From Dehalococcoidia bacterium (lineage in GTDB: Bacteria; Chloroflexota; Dehalococcoidia; Bin125), in the NCBI GenBank assembly GCA_022828105.1, contig JAJEJC010000008.1:124001-188000 (forward strand): DNA of 64,000 nt. The letters are read 5' to 3'. Positions 28,723-49,150 of the stretch are shown here, piece after piece. The notes under the pieces were generated by a model. That model was not told the DNA's origin. It made no database searches and was given only the letters and a program-made list of their open reading frames with translations. The translations under genes were made by a program, and so were the position numbers. Numbering within the stretch: the stretch's first letter is position 1; every line of letters begins with the position of its first letter.

Positions 28723-30306
28723 TCAGGGCAGCGATCGTCCCGCCAGCGCGCCGGTCGGCGTGCCGCCGTCGACCGCCAGTTGGCCGTTGACCAGTACGTA
28801 GGGAATGCCGGCCGGCGGGGTGCGCGGATCGTTGAAATCGGCCGTGTCGATCACCGTGTCGGCGTTGAAGACGACGAGGTCGGCGAACTTGCCCTCGGCC
28901 ACGACGCCCCGATCCGTCAGCCCGAAGCGGCTCGCCGGCAGCGAGGTCATGCCGCGCACGATGTGTTCCAGCAAGACCCCGCTGCGCCGCCGCAGCCGGC
29001 CCACGATCTTGGGGAACGTGCCGTAGGCGCGAGGATGCGGAATGCCCTCGTCGAACGGGATCCCGTCCGAGCCGACCATGTAGTCGTCGCGCGAGAGCAG
29101 CGCGATCACGTCCGCCTCGAGCTGCCGCACGACCGACGCGCTGGCCAGCATCCCGTCGCGGAAGCCGCAGTGCAACCCCGACTCGCGCATCACCTTGAGC
29201 GTCATCTCCGAGACCGACATGCCGAGCATCCGGGCCGCGTCGGCGAACGAAACGCCTTCAAGCTGCTTCAGATGTTCCGCGCCGATCCAGGTCCAGGTCG
29301 CGCTGTCGCTGCGGCCGGGAAAGAGATTCTCCAGCGAGTCGACCAGGCGGTCGCGCCAGGCCGGATCGCCGAGACGCTCGATCAGGCGGTCGATCCCGCC
29401 GATATGGCACTCGCCGCGCAGGAAGTAGCCGGGTACCGTCGCGGCGGCGGCGTAGGGATAGCACTCGAGCGTGACATCGACCCCGTCCGCCTTGGCCCGG
29501 TCAACCTCCGCCATGATCGAATCAATATCGCCTGCGTTGCTCGGAAACGTGCGGTAGTGCGAGATGTGCACCTTGACCCCGCTGCGCCTGCCGATGTTCA
29601 TCGCCTCGACAATGCCCGAACCGTCCGGCGCGCGGTCGTCGTTGTGATTGCGGATGTGGGTCACATAGACGCCGTCGTATCGCGCGACGACCTTGTTCAG
29701 CGCCACCAGCTCGTCGGTCGTCGAGTAGGAGTTGGGATAGTACGACAGCCCGGTCGAGAATCCGGTCGCGCCCTGTTCCATCGCTTCGGCGACCATCCGC
29801 TCGGCCTTCGCCAGACCCGCGCCTTCGAGCGGAACATCCTCGAAGCCGACGCTCTCCAGCCGCACCGGACCGTGCGGGGCCTGCACGGCGACGTTGCAGC
29901 CCTTGCCGTCGTAGTGCCAGCGGAAGGCGGCCATCGTCGACATGTCCAGTCCGCTCGGCGGCGGACCGTACAGACCGGCGATGTAGCGGCCGTAGGACTC
30001 CAGATTCTCCGCCGAGAGCAGCGCGTAGGAGAGTCCGTCCTGGGTGATGAACTCGGTCGTCACGCCCTGCGCGAGGCCGTGGACATGAACCGGATCGCGC
30101 AAGAGGACGCCGTCGGAGTGTGCGTGCGTGTCGATGAATCCGGGGGATACCGTCAGGCCCACAGCGTCGATCTCGCGCTCCGCCGACAGTCCCGACAGAT
30201 CGCCGACCGCGCTGATCCGATCGCCCTCGATCGCCACGTCTGCGGCAATCGCGGGCGACCCCGTTCCGTCGACCACGGCGCCCCCGCGAAGCAACAGATC
30301 AGCCAT
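28723..30306 (-). CDS. N-acyl-D-amino-acid deacylase-like amidohydrolase
   Basis: The 527-residue product belongs to the D-aminoacylase branch of the amidohydrolases. H61 and H63 of DTHAHSD start the metal site. GFSTGLSYYPNSYS, YVTHIRNHND and VKVHISHYRT supply later ligands. SDGIPFDEGIPHPRAYGTF near the C terminus is characteristic and contains the catalytic Asp. It removes acyl groups from D-amino acids or a related N-acyl compound in the cytoplasm. ATG at 30306 overlaps the CotH gene end by eight bases, so the two are probably one transcript. Confidence 0.88.
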   Translation of the reverse strand: MADLLLRGGAVVDGTGSPAIAADVAIEGDRISAVGDLSGLSAEREIDAVGLTVSPGFIDTHAHSDGVLLRDPVHVHGLAQGVTTEFITQDGLSYALLSAENLESYGRYIAGLYGPPPSGLDMSTMAAFRWHYDGKGCNVAVQAPHGPVRLESVGFEDVPLEGAGLAKAERMVAEAMEQGATGFSTGLSYYPNSYSTTDELVALNKVVARYDGVYVTHIRNHNDDRAPDGSGIVEAMNIGRRSGVKVHISHYRTFPSNAGDIDSIMAEVDRAKADGVDVTLECYPYAAAATVPGYFLRGECHIGGIDRLIERLGDPAWRDRLVDSLENLFPGRSDSATWTWIGAEHLKQLEGVSFADAARMLGMSVSEMTLKVMRESGLHCGFRDGMLASASVVRQLEADVIALLSRDDYMVGSDGIPFDEGIPHPRAYGTFPKIVGRLRRRSGVLLEHIVRGMTSLPASRFGLTDRGVVAEGKFADLVVFNADTVIDTADFNDPRTPPAGIPYVLVNGQLAVDGGTPTGALAGRSLP

Positions 30307-31684
30307 CGCCCGGAACCTCCCCGCTCGCGTCCCAGTCCTCGATCTTGGCGTCAATGTACTCCCATCGAGCGTCGATCTCTCCGTACAGCATCTTGACCGC
30401 CGCCCGCCAGGTTCGCTCGCCGGGGCCGTGTTCGTCGGCGGTCACATGCTCTGCGATCAGCGCGGCCAGGCGATCCACCCGTTCGTGCATCGCGTCCAGC
30501 GAGATCGTCTCCCGCATCAGGCTGCGAGAGGCCTCGATGTAGCGCTCCCAGCCTTGCGTGACCAGGGCCTGAAGGACGGGATCACAATGCGGCGCGCGCG
30601 CATCCAGATCCCAGAACACCTTGCGCGTGCGGCAACTGCGCTGCAGTTCGTCCCAATCGGGCATCTGGTAGAACGTACGAATCGGACTGACGCCGCGCCA
30701 GGAGTGCTCCACATCCCATGGAATCAGGGTGAACCCGCCTGAAATGCCGTCCTGGTACCAGAAGTAGTTGTGATTGAGGCATTCCGGCACGCAGTACCAG
30801 GCGACGATGCCGTCCCAGTTGTCGGTCAGCCGATCGGCGGCCAGGTAGCGGAAGATGTCGTCGGGTTCCTGCAACTGTTCCAGCAGGATGTCGTAGCGCG
30901 CTTCGTTCGACGCGGCCGCGTTGACCGCCTCCGAGAAGTCCTCGATCCCGCTCGGGTCGAGCGGTCCGCGCGCGATGGCGTCGGTCAGCGTCTCCTGGAA
31001 CGCCCAGAGCGTGTCGACGTTGCCCGGCCAGATCTCCTTGTAGAGCACGCCGCGCCCGCGATCACGGAAGCGGTCGGCAATGAACACGTCGTCGATGTCC
31101 TCGGTCAACGTGAACAGCCCCAGCGGCTCGCCGTTCAACTCCAGCCGCGCGTACACGGAACGCGGCGCGACGACCCCTGCGTCGCGAAACACTTCATACG
31201 TGAGGATCTCGCGCATCTGCGCCTCGTCGCCGTTCATCGCGTGGAAGTTGAGCCGCTTCAGTCCTTCGTAGCGCAGCGACGGATCGTACTCATCGAACCT
31301 CAACTTCCAGGACAGCTTGGGGCAGACCTGGCGGCCGTCGACGAAACACGCGCGCAGCACGCCGAAGAACCCCTTGTAGCGCACGCCGATTGGATCGAAT
31401 CGCTCGCCGTCAATCTCCACCGCGCCCTGCACGTAGACCTCGGCCGTCGGATTGGCGTTGAGCGCGGCCGCCTCTGCCTCGCCCAGCAGGATGTTGAAGG
31501 TCCGCACCGTCGCGATGTCGAAGACGACGTTGCGTGGATCGCTGCGCTGTTGGTCGACGCCGATCGTGGACGCTGCGGCGCGGGGCGGATCTCGCGGCGG
31601 GCGAGACTCGCCGCTGACGGCAAGCACGACGGCGAAAACGATCACGGCGCCCGCCAGCGTCGCGGCCAGGATCATCCGGCGCAT
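30299..31684 (-). CDS. CotH kinase family protein, membrane-anchored or secreted
   Basis: This 461-residue protein starts with a signal anchor (MILAATLAGAVIVFAVVLAV) and continues into a CotH domain. Typical segments are GVRYKGFFG, KLSWKLRFDEYDPSLRYEGL, LNFHAMNGDEAQMRE, LGLFTLTEDIDDVFI and IPWDVEHSW. CotH proteins are atypical kinases; spore-coat CotH phosphorylates coat proteins. Here the target is unknown and likely at the cell surface. The gene is divergent from VTC-domain and DUF4956 genes, a trio that I know recurs together in diverse bacteria. Confidence 0.88.
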   Translation of the reverse strand: MRRMILAATLAGAVIVFAVVLAVSGESRPPRDPPRAAASTIGVDQQRSDPRNVVFDIATVRTFNILLGEAEAAALNANPTAEVYVQGAVEIDGERFDPIGVRYKGFFGVLRACFVDGRQVCPKLSWKLRFDEYDPSLRYEGLKRLNFHAMNGDEAQMREILTYEVFRDAGVVAPRSVYARLELNGEPLGLFTLTEDIDDVFIADRFRDRGRGVLYKEIWPGNVDTLWAFQETLTDAIARGPLDPSGIEDFSEAVNAAASNEARYDILLEQLQEPDDIFRYLAADRLTDNWDGIVAWYCVPECLNHNYFWYQDGISGGFTLIPWDVEHSWRGVSPIRTFYQMPDWDELQRSCRTRKVFWDLDARAPHCDPVLQALVTQGWERYIEASRSLMRETISLDAMHERVDRLAALIAEHVTADEHGPGERTWRAAVKMLYGEIDARWEYIDAKIEDWDASGEVPGDG

Positions 31685-31736
31685 CGTGTCCCCTCTCCCA
31701 TCTGGGCCAACGTTAACGACCGATTAGTCTGGCGGC

Positions 31737-32468
31737 ATGACAAATGCCCTCGACCAGGAAGTCCGGACTCAGCCCGCGCGGCCGAGCGACCGCGAAGAAC
31801 GCAAGTACCCGCTTCCGATGGCTCGGGCGAGTCTGCTGACCGCCTGGCTCGATGCGCGACTATCCCGCGACCCTCAATACCCCGCAGGCATCGTCACCAG
31901 TTGCTACTACGACGCGCCCCAACTCGACGCCTACCAGGAGTCTGCGGACGGCGAGTTGCGCAAGCGGAAACTGCGCCTGCGCTGGTACGGCGAACCGATC
32001 GACCCCTACGCCGGCGTCTGGCTGGAGATCAAATCGCGCGACGGCCTGCGTTCGTTCAAACAGCGGCATCGCTACCCGATCTCCGGCGCGGCCAATCCGC
32101 TCGGCATCGTGATTCCCCGCCGCGAGGACCTTGCGGCCTGGCTCTCCGAGCTGTCCCTGACCATCGGCGAGCCGCTCGATCCGACGATCGAGCCGACGGC
32201 GCTGGTGCGCTACAACCGGATTCGCTGGCAATCGAGCGACCGTCAGGTTCGAGCCGCGCTCGATACCGATGTCCGCGCCGCCACGCCGTCGGGTGCTCCA
32301 ATCTGGCTGCCGATCGCGGACGGCTCAGTGCTGGAGTTGAAGTCCGCCGGCGAACTGCCGCCGCAACTGTCGCAGCTTGGCCGGCTCGGCCTGCGCCGCG
32401 CCGCGCACTCCAAGTACGCCCTCGCCGTCGAACGCCTCTACGGCGGCGAGCGGCCCAAGACGCGTTAG
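31737..32468 (+). CDS. VTC domain-containing protein (polyphosphate-polymerase-like)
   Basis: The 243-residue product is essentially one VTC/CYTH-like tunnel domain: REERKYPL at the N terminus, VTSCYYDAPQLDAY, a basic KRKLRLRWYG strand, VWLEIKSRDG and LELKSAGELP. In eukaryotes this domain polymerises polyphosphate from ATP at a membrane. Bacterial homologues are less well defined. Basic and acidic tunnel residues alternate as expected. DUF4956 follows after 24 bases, and CotH is divergent 52 bases away, consistent with a surface or polyphosphate-linked module. Confidence 0.88.
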   Translation: MTNALDQEVRTQPARPSDREERKYPLPMARASLLTAWLDARLSRDPQYPAGIVTSCYYDAPQLDAYQESADGELRKRKLRLRWYGEPIDPYAGVWLEIKSRDGLRSFKQRHRYPISGAANPLGIVIPRREDLAAWLSELSLTIGEPLDPTIEPTALVRYNRIRWQSSDRQVRAALDTDVRAATPSGAPIWLPIADGSVLELKSAGELPPQLSQLGRLGLRRAAHSKYALAVERLYGGERPKTR

Positions 32469-32492
32469 CGATCGATCAGCCTGGAGACACAG

Positions 32493-33182
32493 ATGCCAAT
32501 TGTCATGATCGAATGGCCCGACATCCTCGGCCCGACTTCGGAGATCGTGCTGGAGGAGTATCTCTTTGCCATGCTCGTGTCGCTGGCCGCATCGGTCGCG
32601 ACGTATGCGCTGTACGTGCTGTTCTACCGCGACTGGCAGCGCGGCGCCGGCATCCACCGCGTCTTCCTGCTTGCCGGCCCGGCGATCACGCTGCTGTTCA
32701 TCGCCATCCAGTGGTCGCTGCCGCTCTCGCTCGGTCTGCTCGGCGCGCTCTCCTTCGTCCGCTTCCGCACGCCGATCAAGGATCCGGCCGAGATCGGCTA
32801 CCTGCTGGTCATCATCGCGTCATCGATCGGCGCGGCAACCTACAACTACGAACTGGTCGGCATCCTCTTCGCCATCGTCGCCGCGGTCCTGGTCGCGCAG
32901 CGCATCTTCTCGAGCACAGGGCTCAGCGGATTCGCCGCGGGCTCGCGAGACCTGATCATCACCATGCCCGCCGACGACTACGTCCAGCACGAGGCCGCCG
33001 TGCTCGCCTTCCTGCAGACCAATCTCAGGGGCTTCAGGATCGCATCGACCACCCAAAACGCCGGAACCGCCAGCCTGCACGCAACCTTCCGCCGCTCAAG
33101 GTTCGCCGACCGCTGGGCCGAGTTCCGTCAGGAGCTCGAATCCACCGTCGCCCCAGCCTCAGTCGATCTCTACGTCGGCTAA
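32493..33182 (+). CDS. DUF4956 domain-containing membrane protein
   Basis: This 229-residue protein has about four membrane helices in its first 140 residues, the family hallmark LGALSFVRFRTPIKDPAEIG between helices, and a soluble C-terminal domain with alpha/beta character. Function is unknown, but the family co-occurs with VTC and CotH genes. GGAG lies upstream of ATG at 32493. The stop is followed after 12 bases by the selenocysteine tRNA gene on the same strand, so read-through transcription into the tRNA is likely. Confidence 0.88.
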   Translation: MPIVMIEWPDILGPTSEIVLEEYLFAMLVSLAASVATYALYVLFYRDWQRGAGIHRVFLLAGPAITLLFIAIQWSLPLSLGLLGALSFVRFRTPIKDPAEIGYLLVIIASSIGAATYNYELVGILFAIVAAVLVAQRIFSSTGLSGFAAGSRDLIITMPADDYVQHEAAVLAFLQTNLRGFRIASTTQNAGTASLHATFRRSRFADRWAEFRQELESTVAPASVDLYVG

Positions 33183-33194
33183 GCTCTCCACCAC

Positions 33195-33292
33195 GGGAGC
33201 GGAAGGGGACCGGTGTCCTCCACAGTCTTCAAAACTGATGCGGGGCGGCCCGCGCCGTCTCGGGTGGGTTCGACTCCCATGCGCTCCCGCCA
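33195..33292 (+). tRNA. selC: tRNA-Sec (selenocysteine), anticodon UCA
   Basis: The acceptor stem GGGAGCG pairs with CGCTCCC, followed by discriminator G and an encoded CCA (33290-33292). The anticodon loop is CTTCAAA with anticodon TCA. A long variable arm GGGGCGGC-CCGC-GCCGTCTC forms eight pairs including two G-U. The T arm is GTGGG-TTCGACT-CCCAT, as in Escherichia coli selC. The eighth acceptor pair of the usual 8+5 form is G-G here. Total length 98 bases including CCA. This shows that the genome decodes UGA as selenocysteine, directly relevant to the UGA-containing gene at 47642-49150. Confidence 0.93.
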
Positions 33293-33315
33293 GGCCTGAA
33301 TACACCGAGCGTTCA

Positions 33316-33336
33316 GTTCCTGCTTCACGCAGGAAC
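33316..33336. repeat. Hairpin repeat, family B copy 1
   Basis: GTTCCTGC (33316-33323), loop TTCAC, GCAGGAAC (33329-33336), an eight-pair perfect stem, preceded by CA and followed by CCGTTCTCC. A sister copy at 56744-56764 shares loop and flanks while two stem pairs have changed on both sides. Confidence 0.75.
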
Positions 33337-33406
33337 CCGTTCTCCCACGCCGAGCGCAGGTCCCACCCGCTCCCTCTGTAGACCTCCGGCAAGTCCAGCC
33401 AAAGTC

Positions 33407-33426
33407 GGCCCCGCGCAGGCGGGGCC
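33407..33426 (+). terminator. GC-rich stem-loop, possible terminator for the DUF4956/tRNA-Sec transcript
   Basis: GGCCCCGC (33407-33414) pairs with GCGGGGCC (33419-33426) around GCAG. It lies 115 bases past the tRNA. No U tract follows (ATTCGCC), so the role is tentative. Confidence 0.4.
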
Positions 33427-33799
33427 ATTCGCCGCCTGCACAACACTCGACCTCACTCCCCCTTGACTCCCGCGCGGCAACTCAGCACACTTGTCCTATC
33501 TGTGACTGCCATGCGAATCGAGCGCCGCCATCCCCACCCCGGCCGTCTTCACTCCGATTGCTCCCGACTGCACCCCACGCAAACCTCGCCTGGAACCTTC
33601 CGTTTCTGTCCCAAATTGTCCCCAAAACTGGCATTTCACCGCCAAGACCACTCCGAAAGTGAGCAAAATTGATCGCCTCGATCGCACGATCTCCCGCAAA
33701 ACACTGGGTTTCCGCACAAATCGGCCCGCTCAGAAAAAAATCGCCGGGAAGCGACCGCTTCGGCCCCGTCATCGCACCACCGCCGCCATCCGGCCGGCC

Positions 33800-34915
33800 C
33801 TAGAACGCGTCGATTACCGCTTGGGCAAACTCTTCGGTGCTGGCCGAGCCGCCCTGATCGGGAGTGAGCCGCTCGCCCGCCTCGTAGACCGCGTCGATCG
33901 CCGCTTCGAGGCTCGACGCCTGATCGTGGTGGCCCAGGTGATGCAGCATCATCACCGCCGAGAGCATCGTCGCGGTGGGATTGATCCGGTGCATCCCGGC
34001 GATGTCGGGCGCGGTGCCGTGGACCGACTCGAAGTAAGCCCAGTCCTCACCGAAGCAGCCCGACGGCGCCAACCCCAGCCCACCGATCGTGCCTGCCCCC
34101 TCGTCGGAGAAAATGTCGCCGTAGAGGTTCGGCAGCAAGACCACATCGAGGTCGTGCGGCGAGGCGACGAGGCGGCGGGCGAAATCGTCGGCGATGAACG
34201 ACTCGAACTCGATGTCCGAGTAACCGGAGGCGACTTCGGCGGCGATCTCGACGAACCAGCCGTCCGTGCGGGCCAGCACGTTGGTCTTCGCCGAACAGGT
34301 CAGCTTGCCCGGATAACCCTCGGCCTTGCGCTGCTGCGCCAGCCGGCAGGCGAAATGGGCGACGCGCTCGACGTTGGCGCGCGTGAAGTACTTGATCGCG
34401 TAACGGCCCTCGGCCTCGGCGAAGTGGCTGAATCCGCCCGGCACCTGCGTTCGCGAAACGCCGCCGAAGCGCGGACGGTCGGCCAGACCCGACGCCGCGA
34501 CCTCCGACAGATCGCCCTCGATCCCGGCGTACAGGTCTTCCAGATTCTCGCGCACGATGATGTAGTCGATGCCCTCCGGCTGCGCCATCGGCGAGCGGAA
34601 ACCGGGCCGCCACTTGATCGGGCGCACGTTGGCGAACGTCTGCTTGCCCCAGCGGAAGTAGCCCACGCCGGGCGTCTGACCGTTGGTCGACCCGAACAGC
34701 ACGGTGTCGCAGCGTTCGGCCGTGTCGATCACCAGTTGCGTGCCCTCTTCGCGCGACATCTGCGTCGCGAATTCGGCCCCGTCGGGCAAGACCTCAAAGG
34801 CGATCGGCAGCTCCATCGCCTGCAGCACGGTCATCGAGGCGTGCACCGCCTCGGGCGCGGCATCGTCGCCGGGCAGCACGCCCACGCTCGCCTGCGCATC
34901 GGATGAAGTGGCCAT
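33800..34915 (-). CDS. Isocitrate/isopropylmalate dehydrogenase family protein
   Basis: This 371-residue beta-decarboxylating dehydrogenase shows GVLPGDDAAPEAV at the N terminus, VRENLEDLYAGIEG (substrate loop), CSAKTNVL, the metal-site segment LLPNLYGDIFSDEGAGTIGG, and ESVHGTAPDIAG. It oxidises a 2-hydroxy acid with NAD(P). Isocitrate, isopropylmalate or tartrate cannot be told apart by eye, because the usual isopropylmalate loop is not seen. ATG at 34915 lies two bases after the stop of the upstream membrane Mrr-like gene, so they are co-transcribed. Confidence 0.88.
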   Translation of the reverse strand: MATSSDAQASVGVLPGDDAAPEAVHASMTVLQAMELPIAFEVLPDGAEFATQMSREEGTQLVIDTAERCDTVLFGSTNGQTPGVGYFRWGKQTFANVRPIKWRPGFRSPMAQPEGIDYIIVRENLEDLYAGIEGDLSEVAASGLADRPRFGGVSRTQVPGGFSHFAEAEGRYAIKYFTRANVERVAHFACRLAQQRKAEGYPGKLTCSAKTNVLARTDGWFVEIAAEVASGYSDIEFESFIADDFARRLVASPHDLDVVLLPNLYGDIFSDEGAGTIGGLGLAPSGCFGEDWAYFESVHGTAPDIAGMHRINPTATMLSAVMMLHHLGHHDQASSLEAAIDAVYEAGERLTPDQGGSASTEEFAQAVIDAF

Positions 34916-34917
34916 GA

Positions 34918-35691
34918 TCAGTCGTCCTCCCGGGTCAGGTAGCTCGACTCCAGCGAGCGGAACCATGCCTCGTCCACCGCCGCGACTCGGCCCAGCTCGT
35001 CGAGGATCAGGCCAAGGCCCTGGCGCTGCATCAGGTCGATCAACTCGTCGCCGTCGATCAGCCGCGCCCCGCCCTCCGATGACTCCGCCTCGTTGCGCGC
35101 CGAGGCCGAGAAATCGCCGTTGGTCACGTAGAGACCCTCGTAGTCCTCTTCGTCCATCCGTTCATGCAGGTCGCGGATCTGGTTCGCGCCCAGCGACCCG
35201 AACGAGCGGCGGAAGATGACGTACACGCCGACCCCGTCCGGACCCTCGGAGTCGTGACTCGTGGCGACGCACTCGACCGCTCCGTCGAACGACGTCCGTT
35301 GCACCTGCACATCGGAGAGCCCCATCGCCGACAGGAATTCAAGCGTGAAGCGCTGGAACGCGTCCGCGCCCAGGTTGCGGATCGCCGAGTCGACCCGCGA
35401 GCGCCACTCGAACTCACTCATCAAGGGCGCATCGCTCGGATCGGCCTCAATCTCGACACGACCTTCGACCAGGTGCTCGTCTTCAGCCGCCCGCTGCTCC
35501 GCCTCACGGCGTTGCCGCCCGCGCCGCATCGTCCGCCAGCCGAGATAGAGCATGGCCAGCACCAACGGAGCAAACTGCACCCAGGCAGGCGCCGTCTCCC
35601 CTTCCTCAACCCCCGCAATCCGCGCAAAGATCGCCCCGCCAATCATCAAGATCAGCAAAGCAACCAGGACATCAACCAGAACAGATCGCAT
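34918..35691 (-). CDS. Membrane-anchored Mrr-like restriction-endonuclease-fold protein, active site altered
   Basis: This 257-residue protein begins with two hydrophobic segments (SVLVDVLVALLILMIGG and APLVLAMLYLGW), then a charged linker, then an Mrr-like domain: FQRFTLEFLSAMGLSDVQV, GLYVTNGDFSASARNEAE and ARLIDGDELIDLM. In active Mrr enzymes the core reads D-G-G-x-D followed by Q-x-K. Here it reads FDGAVEC and YVIFRRS, so the second acidic residue is Glu and the Q-x-K pair is lost. It may be an inactive DNA-binding or sensor protein. ATG at 35691 is preferred; GTG at 35700 is possible. It is a non-obvious partner for the dehydrogenase behind it. Confidence 0.7.
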   Translation of the reverse strand: MRSVLVDVLVALLILMIGGAIFARIAGVEEGETAPAWVQFAPLVLAMLYLGWRTMRRGRQRREAEQRAAEDEHLVEGRVEIEADPSDAPLMSEFEWRSRVDSAIRNLGADAFQRFTLEFLSAMGLSDVQVQRTSFDGAVECVATSHDSEGPDGVGVYVIFRRSFGSLGANQIRDLHERMDEEDYEGLYVTNGDFSASARNEAESSEGGARLIDGDELIDLMQRQGLGLILDELGRVAAVDEAWFRSLESSYLTREDD

Positions 35692-35731
35692 GTTGTTCAC
35701 CGGATCAGACGATCGCCTTCACCACCGCAGA

Positions 35732-37150
35732 CTACCCGCCCAATCGATCTTGGAGGTCGGGGGCGGGTCGGAAGACGAACTTCTTGCCCGAACGCTGGCG
35801 CTGGAGATAGCCCCGCTCAGTCAGATCCTGGAGGTCGGCGCGCGCGGCCCAATACGAGACCCGGTGCTCGTTCTGCTGCTGGGCAATGGTGAAGATGCGG
35901 TTGGGCTGATCGAGGGCGCTGTGCAGAATCGCCAACTGACGCTCCGTGAAGCCCGACTCCCCCAACCGCTCCAACAGTTCTCGCATCGCCGCGGCTTGCT
36001 GCTGCAGGTCTTCGCCGAGCTGGTTGACGGCCTGCTGCATGATCTCGAGCTGATGCAGCAGGAAGTGGGTGACGTCGTTGTTGTCCGCGGTCACAAACTG
36101 ATAGGCGCGCGAGTACTGCGCCGGCGCTTGCAGCAGGAAGTGGGAGATGGGCAAGTACGGAGCAAGCCACCAGCCGGACCGCAGCAACGACCAGTAAAAC
36201 AGCGCCCGCGCCGTGCGACCGTTGCCATCCACGAAGGGGTGGTCATATCCGATCATGAAGTGCAGCAGGATCGCGCGCACCAGCGGATGGATGAACTCGT
36301 CACCTGCATCCGGATCGGCAAACTCGCAGATACGCCGCACCCGATCGGGCAGCTCATCGGCCGGAGGCGGTCGGTGGACCACCTCTTGGCTCGTAGAAAC
36401 GACGTAAACGCGCGCCTCGCCGGGCTGCTGCAAGCGGCCTTCATCACGTTCACTGTGCATCGTCCCGGCGGTCACGATCCGATGCAGTCCCAGAATGTGC
36501 TCCGGATCGACCGGCTCATCGCTCGCCGCCCATTCCTCGACGGTCTGCATCGCGGCGAAGTTGTTGGCGATCATGCGCTCGCTCTTGTCGCGCGGCGCAC
36601 GACCGTCGTTGAGCATCTCGCGGGCCAGTTGGCGGCTCGTGTTGGCGCCCTCGAGACGACTCGACTGGATGGACTCCTCCATCAGACCGCGCTGCAGCCA
36701 TCGCCGCCGCGCTGCATTGGTCATCAGGGTCTCGTTGGCGAGGATGTGCTCGCGCTGCACTTGATCCAACCGATTGAGCAGCCCCAGCAGCGGGGGGACG
36801 TAGCAATACCAAAACGGCTGCCCGCCCCGCCCCAGCAGCGGCAGCGTGCGAGCCGCCGCGCGTCGCGCCATTGCCATGCCGAACCAATGCAGACGCACAC
36901 TGACGCCGTCCGGCGGCTGTCGGTAGCGCACTTCGTCCCAGGGCAGATACCGTCCCTGGCTGTCAAGCGGATCGGCATTGGCGAGCAACGCGACCTGCTG
37001 ATCGGCGTTGAGCGCGATGAATTCAGCGGAAAGCGCGGCCTGCGACGGCGCATTCTGAGGAAGCGTCATGCGGCGGAGCCCTGCCACTGCCGGTTTGCTC
37101 ACGGTTTCTGTGAAACCAATAGTAGCGGGATCCGGAGACCAACGGGACAC
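35732..37150 (-). CDS. Fic family protein (AMP-transferase type) with N-terminal inhibitory motif
   Basis: This 472-residue Fic protein carries the catalytic motif HPFVDGNGR at 304-312, which transfers AMP or another nucleotide to a target hydroxyl. The antitoxin-like inhibitory helix motif S/T-xxx-E-G is present upstream as S163-SRLE167-G168, marking a class II, self-inhibited Fic. An N-terminal domain of about 130 residues and a C-terminal winged-helix-like region (FTERQLAILHSALDQPNRIF) are typical of Fic/DUF4172 regulators. The start could be GTG at 37150 or ATG at 37069. A palindrome with repeats lies upstream. Confidence 0.9.
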   Translation of the reverse strand: MSRWSPDPATIGFTETVSKPAVAGLRRMTLPQNAPSQAALSAEFIALNADQQVALLANADPLDSQGRYLPWDEVRYRQPPDGVSVRLHWFGMAMARRAAARTLPLLGRGGQPFWYCYVPPLLGLLNRLDQVQREHILANETLMTNAARRRWLQRGLMEESIQSSRLEGANTSRQLAREMLNDGRAPRDKSERMIANNFAAMQTVEEWAASDEPVDPEHILGLHRIVTAGTMHSERDEGRLQQPGEARVYVVSTSQEVVHRPPPADELPDRVRRICEFADPDAGDEFIHPLVRAILLHFMIGYDHPFVDGNGRTARALFYWSLLRSGWWLAPYLPISHFLLQAPAQYSRAYQFVTADNNDVTHFLLHQLEIMQQAVNQLGEDLQQQAAAMRELLERLGESGFTERQLAILHSALDQPNRIFTIAQQQNEHRVSYWAARADLQDLTERGYLQRQRSGKKFVFRPAPDLQDRLGG

Positions 37151-47645: not shown

Positions 47646-49150
47646 GGAAACGTCAGCACAATCTCGCGACCCTGCCGCGACTCCAGGTCGAGATGCACAA
47701 TGCGGTGATTGTTCGTGTCGGCGACTAGCAGCGACCTGCCTGGGCCGTGAGTCAGACCGCCCGGTTCGTCGAGTTGGAGGTCGCCGAAGCTGCCGATTGC
47801 GTCTCCGTGGCCTCCGACCAGCGTGTTGACATTCTCCGTCAGCGGGAAGACCTGCTTGATCTTGTGGTTGAAGGTGTCGGCGACGTAGAGCTCGTCGCCG
47901 ACGCGTGCGACATCGAGCGGATGCTGCAGCTTGGCCACTGAGCGGCTGCCGTCGGCGTCGCCGAAATGGAAGAGTCCACCCTGGCCGGTCTTGCCGATGA
48001 AGGTGGTCGTCCGGCCGTCGGGATCCCAGCTGATCTCGCGTACGCCGCTGGACTCGGAGTCGGCAAATGCCAGCCCGCTCGGACCCGGCGACAGACCGGA
48101 GACCTGGGCCAGCTCCGACTGCATGCGCGGACCGTCGACGATGCCTTCGCGTCCCGAACCGCCCCAGGGCCCGACATAGGAGCCGTCGCCGGCGGCGGCG
48201 CCCAGGGGCATCCGCCAGATCTGATGGATGCCGGCCATGGCGATGTAGAGATCGCCCTCGTGCACCGCGACATCCCAGGGCGAACTGAGGGCCGTTCGAG
48301 TGGCCGGCTCGCCGGCGGGCATCATCCGCGCCTGCTCACCGGTCCCGGCAATCGTCGCGACGCTGCCGTCGCGCAAGTCGATCCGGCGCACTGCGTGATT
48401 CTCGTTGTCAGCGACAAAGACGAAATTGCCGTAGACCTCGACGCCCTGCGGCTGGTTGAACTGCGCCACGTCCGCCGACCCGTCGCGGAAGCCCGCCTCG
48501 GAACCGCCAACCACCTGCGACACGTTGCCCTCGAGGTCGGAGACGATGATTCGATCGTTGTTGCTGTCCGAAACGACCAGCCGTCCGGAGGCCTCGTCCC
48601 AGGCGACCTTGCCGGGGAACGAGAGGGCGCTGTCGCGGCCGTTCTCGCGGACCAGTCCGAGATCGCGGCGGGTGAGGACCGACTCGGCCTCGTACTCGGC
48701 CAGCCAGCCGTCGATCAAGGGCGCGGCCATGTCCTCGGTCAGCTCGCCCTCGTGGATGCCGATCACATTGCCGCGCGGGTCGATGAAGTAGAGCGTCGGC
48801 CAGGCGCGCGCGCCGAAGGTCTGCCAGTAGCTGAAGTCGGCGTCGTTGAGCACCGGATGCTCAATCCGCAGGCGCAGGATGGCCTGGCGCAGATTCTCGG
48901 TCTCTCGTTCGGTGGGGAACTTGGGCGAGTGGACCGAGACGACCTGCAATGTGTCGGCGTAGCGTCGTTCCAGCTTCCGCAACTGCGGAAGCACGTGCAG
49001 ACAGTTGATTCAAGCGTAGGTCCAAAAGTGCAGGATCAGCAGGCGGCCCCGGAAGTCATCCATGGACATCTCGCGGCCGGTGTTCAGCCAGGTCATCCCG
49101 GCTGGCACGGCGGGCGCGGGGGTCTGTCCGAATGCTCGTGAAGTGGTCAT
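47642..49150 (-). CDS. NHLRC2-like thioredoxin/NHL-repeat protein with in-frame UGA read as selenocysteine
   Basis: One continuous frame of 502 codons is interrupted only by TGA at 49012-49010, codon 47. Residues 1-160 are a thioredoxin-like domain and the rest an NHL-repeat beta-propeller, the NHLRC2 layout. At the redox site, family members read TYCCINC followed by HVLPxL. Here the sequence is HFWTYA-U47-IN-C50-LHVLPQL, so UGA falls exactly on the first cysteine of the CxxC pair. Homology continues on both sides of the UGA, which argues against a true stop. A stem-loop suited as SECIS follows, and tRNA-Sec is encoded at 33195. A start after the UGA would delete the active site. ATG at 49150 is used. 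The protein is probably a thiol oxidoreductase; its partner is unknown. Confidence 0.85.
48973..48992 (-). promoter_or_regulatory. Putative bacterial SECIS element
   Basis: In mRNA sense, 17 bases after the UGA, GCUUCCGC pairs perfectly with GCGGAAGC around loop AGUU. The loop begins 26 bases past UGA and has G as second loop base followed by U. This fits the bacterial SECIS consensus as I know it (apical loop roughly 16-37 bases from UGA, G among its first two bases). Confidence 0.7.

Follow-up and report, generated by a model that had tools for sequence, protein, structure and literature searches.

We analysed a 64,000-nucleotide stretch (the window) of a Dehalococcoidia metagenome-assembled genome. 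ARAGORN called a single tRNA gene in it, tRNA-SeC(tca), and this gene, selC, lies directly downstream of genes for a VTC-domain protein and a DUF4956 protein. Approximately 14.4 kb farther downstream, on the opposite strand, is a gene interrupted by an in-frame UGA (Table 1). In its product, NHL repeats come after a thioredoxin-like domain. Genomes, contigs and loci are referred to by our own handles (G, C and L numbers) where they have to be told apart.

Table 1. Positions of the features discussed, in window coordinates except for the peroxiredoxin gene (genome:contig:position).
Feature	Position	Strand	Basis
VTC-domain protein, syntenic neighbour	31737..32468	+	Pfam PF09359
DUF4956 protein, syntenic neighbour, stop 12 nt upstream of selC	32493..33182	+	Pfam PF16316, 33.5 bits, cut-off 30.6
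selC, tRNA-Sec (UCA) with encoded CCA	33195..33292	+	ARAGORN; RF01852, 70.3 bits
G8, 5' partner in non-canonical acceptor pair 8	33202	+	sequence comparison
Anticodon TCA (from tRNA position 35)	33229..33231	+	ARAGORN
Variable arm, 8 bp and 6-nt loop	33241..33262	+	8/8 pairs standard, two of them G-U
G66, 3' partner in non-canonical acceptor pair 8	33281	+	sequence comparison
Thioredoxin-NHL protein (NHLRC2/SOQ1-like), predicted selenoprotein, 502 aa	47642..49150	-	Pfam Thioredoxin_8 and NHL; UGA conserved
Candidate bacterial SECIS hairpin, 8-bp stem, AGUU loop	48973..48992	-	fold; pair conservation
In-frame UGA, predicted Sec, motif AUINC	49010..49012	-	conservation in relatives
Peroxiredoxin (L183), predicted Sec at the peroxidatic position, motif FTGGUT	G000:C9:26415-26876	+	PF00578

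The selC gene and its neighbourhood

Over 33195-33288, the tRNA gene scores 70.3 bits (E 2.4e-12) with the Rfam model of bacterial tRNA-Sec (RF01852), whose cut-off is 47 bits. Among the 150 of 404 first-look candidates scored in the 2.74-Mb assembly, which is 97% complete, no other match exceeds this cut-off. The cut-off alone is unspecific, as the model also scores other kinds of tRNA and 5/14 control genomes exceed it. The matches listed for 100 relatives split into two groups, at 61.8 bits or more and at 52.6 bits or less, and the window selC falls in the upper group. Matches in relatives and elsewhere in the phylum were scored under stricter filters, which lose weak matches. A first-pass annotation of this DNA had described a tRNA-Sec with a UCA anticodon and an 8-bp variable arm, starting 12 bases past the DUF4956 stop. 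Both the identity and the spacing are confirmed (the DUF4956 open reading frame, stop included, ends at 33182). The covariance-model score lies above the threshold, and a reading of the locus as a pseudogene is not borne out.

The tRNA has seven standard acceptor pairs followed by G8-G66, and five standard pairs in the T-stem; residue 73 is G, and the CCA end is encoded in the gene. Its acceptor/T helix has the 8+5 spacing with 12 standard pairs, the eighth pair being G-G. The D-stem is 6 bp long with a 4-nt loop, and the anticodon stem has four standard pairs and an A-A fifth pair. The minimum-energy fold predicted from the sequence alone is not the cloverleaf, and it is just slightly better than those of shuffled sequences (z -1.62, 13/200 shuffles). 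By all signs, the window selC is an ordinary tRNA-Sec gene and is probably functional.

The order VTC-DUF4956-selC was found in all 12 of the other stretches read from the genus. Nine of these have a gap of 12-28 nt before selC, and no sigma-70-like promoter was found in 31650-33850 (0.2 expected by chance; the scan is uninformative), so that selC might be transcribed by read-through. These observations would fit a functional tie, in which selC and the VTC-DUF4956 pair are co-regulated or belong to one system. However, the genes are approximately 1 kb apart in the other three genus members and approximately 2.4 kb apart in G017, which belongs to another genus of the family. The stretches read around selC in G015, G016 and G018, the last of which covers just 0.86 kb upstream, showed neither gene. 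The linkage of selC and DUF4956 that was to be checked in relatives therefore holds throughout the genus stretches read, is loose in G017 and was unseen in the other three. A functional link is unsupported outside the genus, and we consider it very unlikely. The linkage is genus-level synteny and does not amount to evidence for a common function.

Four terminator-like sites in 31650-33850 all lie on the strand opposite selC. A CotH gene (-) adjoins the VTC and DUF4956 genes (+) within 30299-33182, and the three are kept together in the genus. On the other side of selC, a gene for a Fic-domain protein (35732-37150, -) lies near an Mrr-type nuclease-like gene (34918-35700).

Selenocysteine machinery and UGA-containing genes

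Profile searches showed that the genome encodes SelA, SelB and SelD, which serve the synthesis and delivery of selenocysteine. SelA scored 429.9 bits (contig C4). SelB, of 622 aa, scored 349.9 bits with its neighbours in frame and 350.1 bits with the NCBIfam selB model (contig C9). SelD scored 353.5 bits (contig C4) and has one in-frame TGA, in the motif GGUGSK. All three genes sit on contigs other than that of selC. The earlier remark that no other Sec genes are nearby is correct for selA, selB and selD; it fails for the conserved-UGA gene approximately 14.4 kb downstream.

We looked for the same components in a set of 100 genomes, counted by hand, that comprised this genome, the rest of its genus and family, and further genomes from the class. 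In sixty, a tRNA-Sec scoring 60 bits or more was accompanied by a SelD above the cut-off; four had only the tRNA-Sec, six had only SelD, and 30 had neither. The genomes with selC and no SelD, or with a TGA-containing SelD and no selC, include fairly complete ones (G017, 94%; G045, 96%). Within the genus, selC was not seen in 2 of 15 genomes, G003 (89% complete) and G012 (88%), both of which retain UGA genes.

A TGA was present in SelD in 65 of the 66 genomes with a SelD above the cut-off. When 41 SelD loci were scanned for the motif, 39 had a stop at the catalytic site, one (G049) had Cys, and one (G016) was unmatched by the patterns. Four loci (L122-L125) had been missed by the first motif pattern; on rescanning, three showed the stop and L123 was again unmatched. 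G049 (L126, contig C75) is the only one of the 66 genomes with a TGA-less SelD match, having Cys instead, and it is without a tRNA-Sec of at least 60 bits. In 4 of 14 SelD sequences from the genus, a stem reads GGCGCA/UGCGCC in place of GGCUCA/UGAGCC, which by eye is a compensatory exchange.

Our check for UGA in this genome covered SelA, SelB, SelD and three Pfam families, far from a whole selenoproteome. The molybdopterin family PF00384, in which a Sec-containing formate dehydrogenase would fall, had three matches, none with a UGA, and PF10262 (SelW-like proteins) had one match, also with no UGA. Two of the ten PF00578 matches contain a UGA, and these are a peroxiredoxin and the thioredoxin-NHL gene. 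The peroxiredoxin UGA is present in all 13 genus genomes searched and in three more distant members of the class. Within the matched stretch, two of the 13 contain a TAG in addition, and one contains another TGA.

These findings support, at the level of genomic evidence, the earlier claim that UGA is recoded in this lineage: selA, selB, selC and selD are present, together with three UGA-interrupted genes that are conserved in relatives. The further claim that the whole genome needs UGA-aware gene calling is overstated. UGA is also an ordinary stop, with TGA ending 3 of 10 open reading frames checked in the window, and a handful of genes would be truncated. With standard gene prediction, SelD, the thioredoxin-NHL gene and the peroxiredoxin would each be expected to come out cut short at the UGA.

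Among solved structures, the thioredoxin-NHL protein matches SOQ1 with an E of 2.9e-102 and human NHLRC2 with an E of 4.7e-99. Its alignment with 6gc1 extends over residues 60-541 of the query and covers both domains. The UGA is kept in 15/15 genus genomes and in four of five further genomes of the family; the fifth gave no match. Eighteen of these 19 loci were read, and every one has the sequence A-stop-INC. Four distant homologues (L248, L249, L250 and L253) read GCINC or CCINC, with Cys at the Sec position, and three of the four come from genomes that bear selC (G070, G093 and G043). Since the Cys form occurs even in distant genomes with selC, Sec at this position appears to be a trait of the family and not of the class. 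In 12/12 family genomes with both genes on one contig, selC and the thioredoxin-NHL gene are 12-20 kb apart. This proximity is conserved gene order, and it does not demonstrate a shared function.

We found a candidate SECIS hairpin, GCUUCCGC-AGUU-GCGGAAGC, on the 3' side of the thioredoxin-NHL UGA, with its loop 26-29 nt downstream of the UGA. Its predicted fold in the window has a z of -1.59 (16/200 shuffles). Across the 18 loci, the inner seven pairs are kept in 123/126 cells and an inner pair is broken in three; the outermost pair is lost in 8/18 loci. The Pro, Gln, Leu and Arg residues at +8 to +11 are each encoded by one and the same codon in 18/18 loci, the Leu codon being TTG, whereas the Leu at +13 is never TTG. 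Mean codon diversity from +6 to +12 is 0.128, compared to 0.328 elsewhere in the gene, a value reached in 1084 of 100000 random draws. The stretch immediately upstream of the UGA is equally conserved in its codons. Given this frequency of random draws and the equal conservation before the UGA, the statistical case for the SECIS is moderate.

We found no report of a Sec form of NHLRC2/SOQ1 in the open-licence literature searched, and the term 'NHL' is absent from the selenoproteome reviews PMC13188914 and PMC9312934, as far as their available text goes. A generic entry in the accessible part of PMC13188914, 'Redoxin family protein, UxxC', might already cover the thioredoxin-NHL protein under another name. 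The protein is possibly an unreported, predicted Sec form of the NHLRC2/SOQ1 family.

The eighth acceptor pair across Chloroflexota

The first-pass annotation had singled out the G-G pair at position 8 of the acceptor stem as a departure from the standard 8+5 stem. We read this pair in 131 tRNA-Sec sequences, 68 from the class and 63 from other classes of Chloroflexota. The class sample consisted of 64 of the 66 listed matches of at least 60 bits, plus four further class sequences; one listed match in G095 and the second one in G078 were left unread. For the other classes, we hand-picked sequences among the matches listed so as to spread over families, and one locus (L136) was left unused. Two genomes have two tRNA-Sec matches above 60 bits, G038 (L162 and L163, both on contig C68) and G078 (contigs C34 and C9).

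Seven sequences were dropped from the pair counts, leaving 124. Five of them, all from the class (G085, G099, G151, G159 and G189), were dropped by family and look by eye like bulged 7/5 tRNAs. The other two (G223 and G256) had fewer than six of seven canonical pairs at positions 1-7, a rule that slightly lowers the number of non-canonical pairs 1-7 reported here.

We found that mismatches are concentrated at pair 8. Acceptor pairs 1-7 are non-canonical in 1/868 cells (pair 6 in 1/124, pairs 1-5 and 7 in none), compared to 75/124 for pair 8. In the class, 47/63 sequences have a pair-8 mismatch (42 G-G, 3 G-A, 1 A-G and 1 U-C), as do 28/61 in the other classes (16 G-G, 5 U-C, 4 G-A, 2 A-G and 1 A-A). 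Counted by family, the mismatch is present in 24 of 35 in the class sample and in 19 of 41 elsewhere. This spread over families shows that it does not go back to a single recent event, although related sequences are not independent. The G-G pair is real, and it is no peculiarity of this tRNA: most sequences of the class sample have a non-canonical pair 8, and it is common in the sample from other classes, which makes it a feature of the lineage.

In the T-stem only pair 10 deviates (8/124), and both G49-Y65 (93 G-U, 31 G-C) and G73 are kept in 124/124. The fifth anticodon-stem pair is non-canonical in 31/124 sequences and in all 13 of those from the genus (12 A-A, one C-U). An alternative 9/4 fold, with A9 pairing to U65, was rejected because positions 9 and 65 are canonical in only 76/124 sequences, compared to 124/124 for 49 and 65; the 8/5 fold was kept.

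A mismatched acceptor pair together with a non-standard anticodon-stem pair might also mark a decaying pseudogene or a sequencing error, the more so as this acceptor pair is important in E. coli, according to the part of PMC9976931 available. However, G-G is found in 13/13 tRNA-Sec genes read from the genus and recurs in many families, the other seven acceptor pairs, the T-stem, G73 and CCA are intact, and selA, selB, selD and UGA genes accompany the tRNA. Conservation across independent genomes leads us to reject decay or error, to which we assign a negligible probability.

Another reading takes the tRNA for a 7/5 or allo-tRNA type without Sec, such as a serine or cysteine suppressor. With pair 8 open, just seven acceptor pairs form. 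The accessible text of PMC5330540 describes 7/5 tRNA-Sec from several lineages, among them Clostridiales, some Proteobacteria and Dehalogenimonas, a relative within the class. Allo-tRNAs have 12-bp domains and come in 8/4 and 9/3 types, as covered in the portion of PMC7609411 available. Against this reading stand the eight residues, not seven, between the T-stem and G73, the UCA anticodon and the co-occurrence with a UGA-containing SelD. The T-stem of four or three pairs that an 8/4 or 9/3 allo-tRNA would have is not found here, where all five T-stem pairs are standard. We regard this reading as very unlikely.

Proposed selenocysteine decoding and comparison with known systems

Based on these results we suggest, with a probability of about 0.95, that the tRNA gene is the single selC of a complete bacterial Sec system in this Dehalococcoidia genome, and that its eighth acceptor pair is a mismatch typical of the lineage. 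The anatomy of the tRNA, the presence of selA, selB and selD, and the conserved UGAs at catalytic positions are direct observations. For charging, conversion and decoding we infer the steps of the known bacterial pathway. By analogy, SerRS would load serine onto the tRNA-Sec, and SelA would convert Ser-tRNA to Sec-tRNA with selenophosphate supplied by SelD. SelB would then bring the Sec-tRNA to UGA codons that have a SECIS hairpin on their 3' side, in a few redox genes that presumably include SelD, the peroxiredoxin and the thioredoxin-NHL gene of the window. The acceptor/T helix retains its 8+5 spacing and has a G-G step where the two stems join.

In E. coli, C7-G66, G49.U65 and C50-G64 are reported in a review to be elements for recognition by SelB and rejection by EF-Tu (PMC9976931, in the part available). 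The E. coli side of our comparison is taken from the literature, and our survey covers Chloroflexota. As only 19/124 of the sequences sampled have C-G at pair 8, the E. coli C7-G66 element is not general in the Chloroflexota sampled. No published report of a pair-8 mismatch in Chloroflexota tRNA-Sec was found in the open-licence literature searched. We infer that recognition by SelB and rejection by EF-Tu in Chloroflexota would be independent of C7-G66, and may depend instead on helix length, on G49-Y65 and perhaps on the mismatch itself.

A broader proposal, which we offer tentatively and hold to be doubtful, is that pair 8 in Chloroflexota has been freed from pairing, is mostly purine-purine and replaces C7-G66 in the discrimination between SelB and EF-Tu, and that NHLRC2/SOQ1-type proteins have a Sec form. 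If this were true, the SelB of the phylum would read the acceptor/T junction differently, and the Sec form would be a natural clue that the puzzling motif of NHLRC2/SOQ1 is redox-active. A Sec in the CxxC motif speaks for a redox function, at any rate among the bacterial relatives of NHLRC2/SOQ1 described here.

The selC gene itself is a standard component of Sec decoding, and what is of interest is the widespread pair-8 mismatch and the predicted Sec form of an NHLRC2/SOQ1 relative. In much of the phylum, a tRNA-Sec acceptor position is under different rules at the very place where work in E. coli put an EF-Tu rejection element. With the pair-8 survey, the way in which SelB and EF-Tu discriminate between tRNAs can be tested by comparison.

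Compared to bacterial tRNA-Sec of the 8/5 type (selC, RF01852), the tRNA of the window shares the UCA anticodon, G73, CCA, the long variable arm, the 8+5 spacing, the 6-bp D-stem with a 4-nt loop, and G49-U65. It differs in pair 8, which is G-G and not a Watson-Crick pair (C7-G66 in E. coli), and in the A-A fifth pair of the anticodon stem. It resembles the 7/5 tRNA-Sec (PMC5330540, as far as available) in its seven standard acceptor pairs and in occurring in Dehalococcoidia. However, where the 7/5 form has seven residues from the T-stem to G73 and usually a bulge, the tRNA of the window has eight residues and a 1x1 mismatch.

The predicted selenoproteins compare in a similar way with known families. 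SelD and the peroxiredoxin, whose families are both in the 2026 selenoprotein list (PMC13188914, in the part available), have the predicted Sec at the known catalytic position, with nothing notable that is different. The thioredoxin-NHL protein has the same architecture as NHLRC2 and SOQ1, a thioredoxin-like domain and then NHL repeats, with its motif at the position of CCINC. In contrast to CCINC of NHLRC2, this motif is AUINC: a UGA codon takes the place of the first Cys of the CxxC, and it is preceded by Ala where NHLRC2 has Cys.
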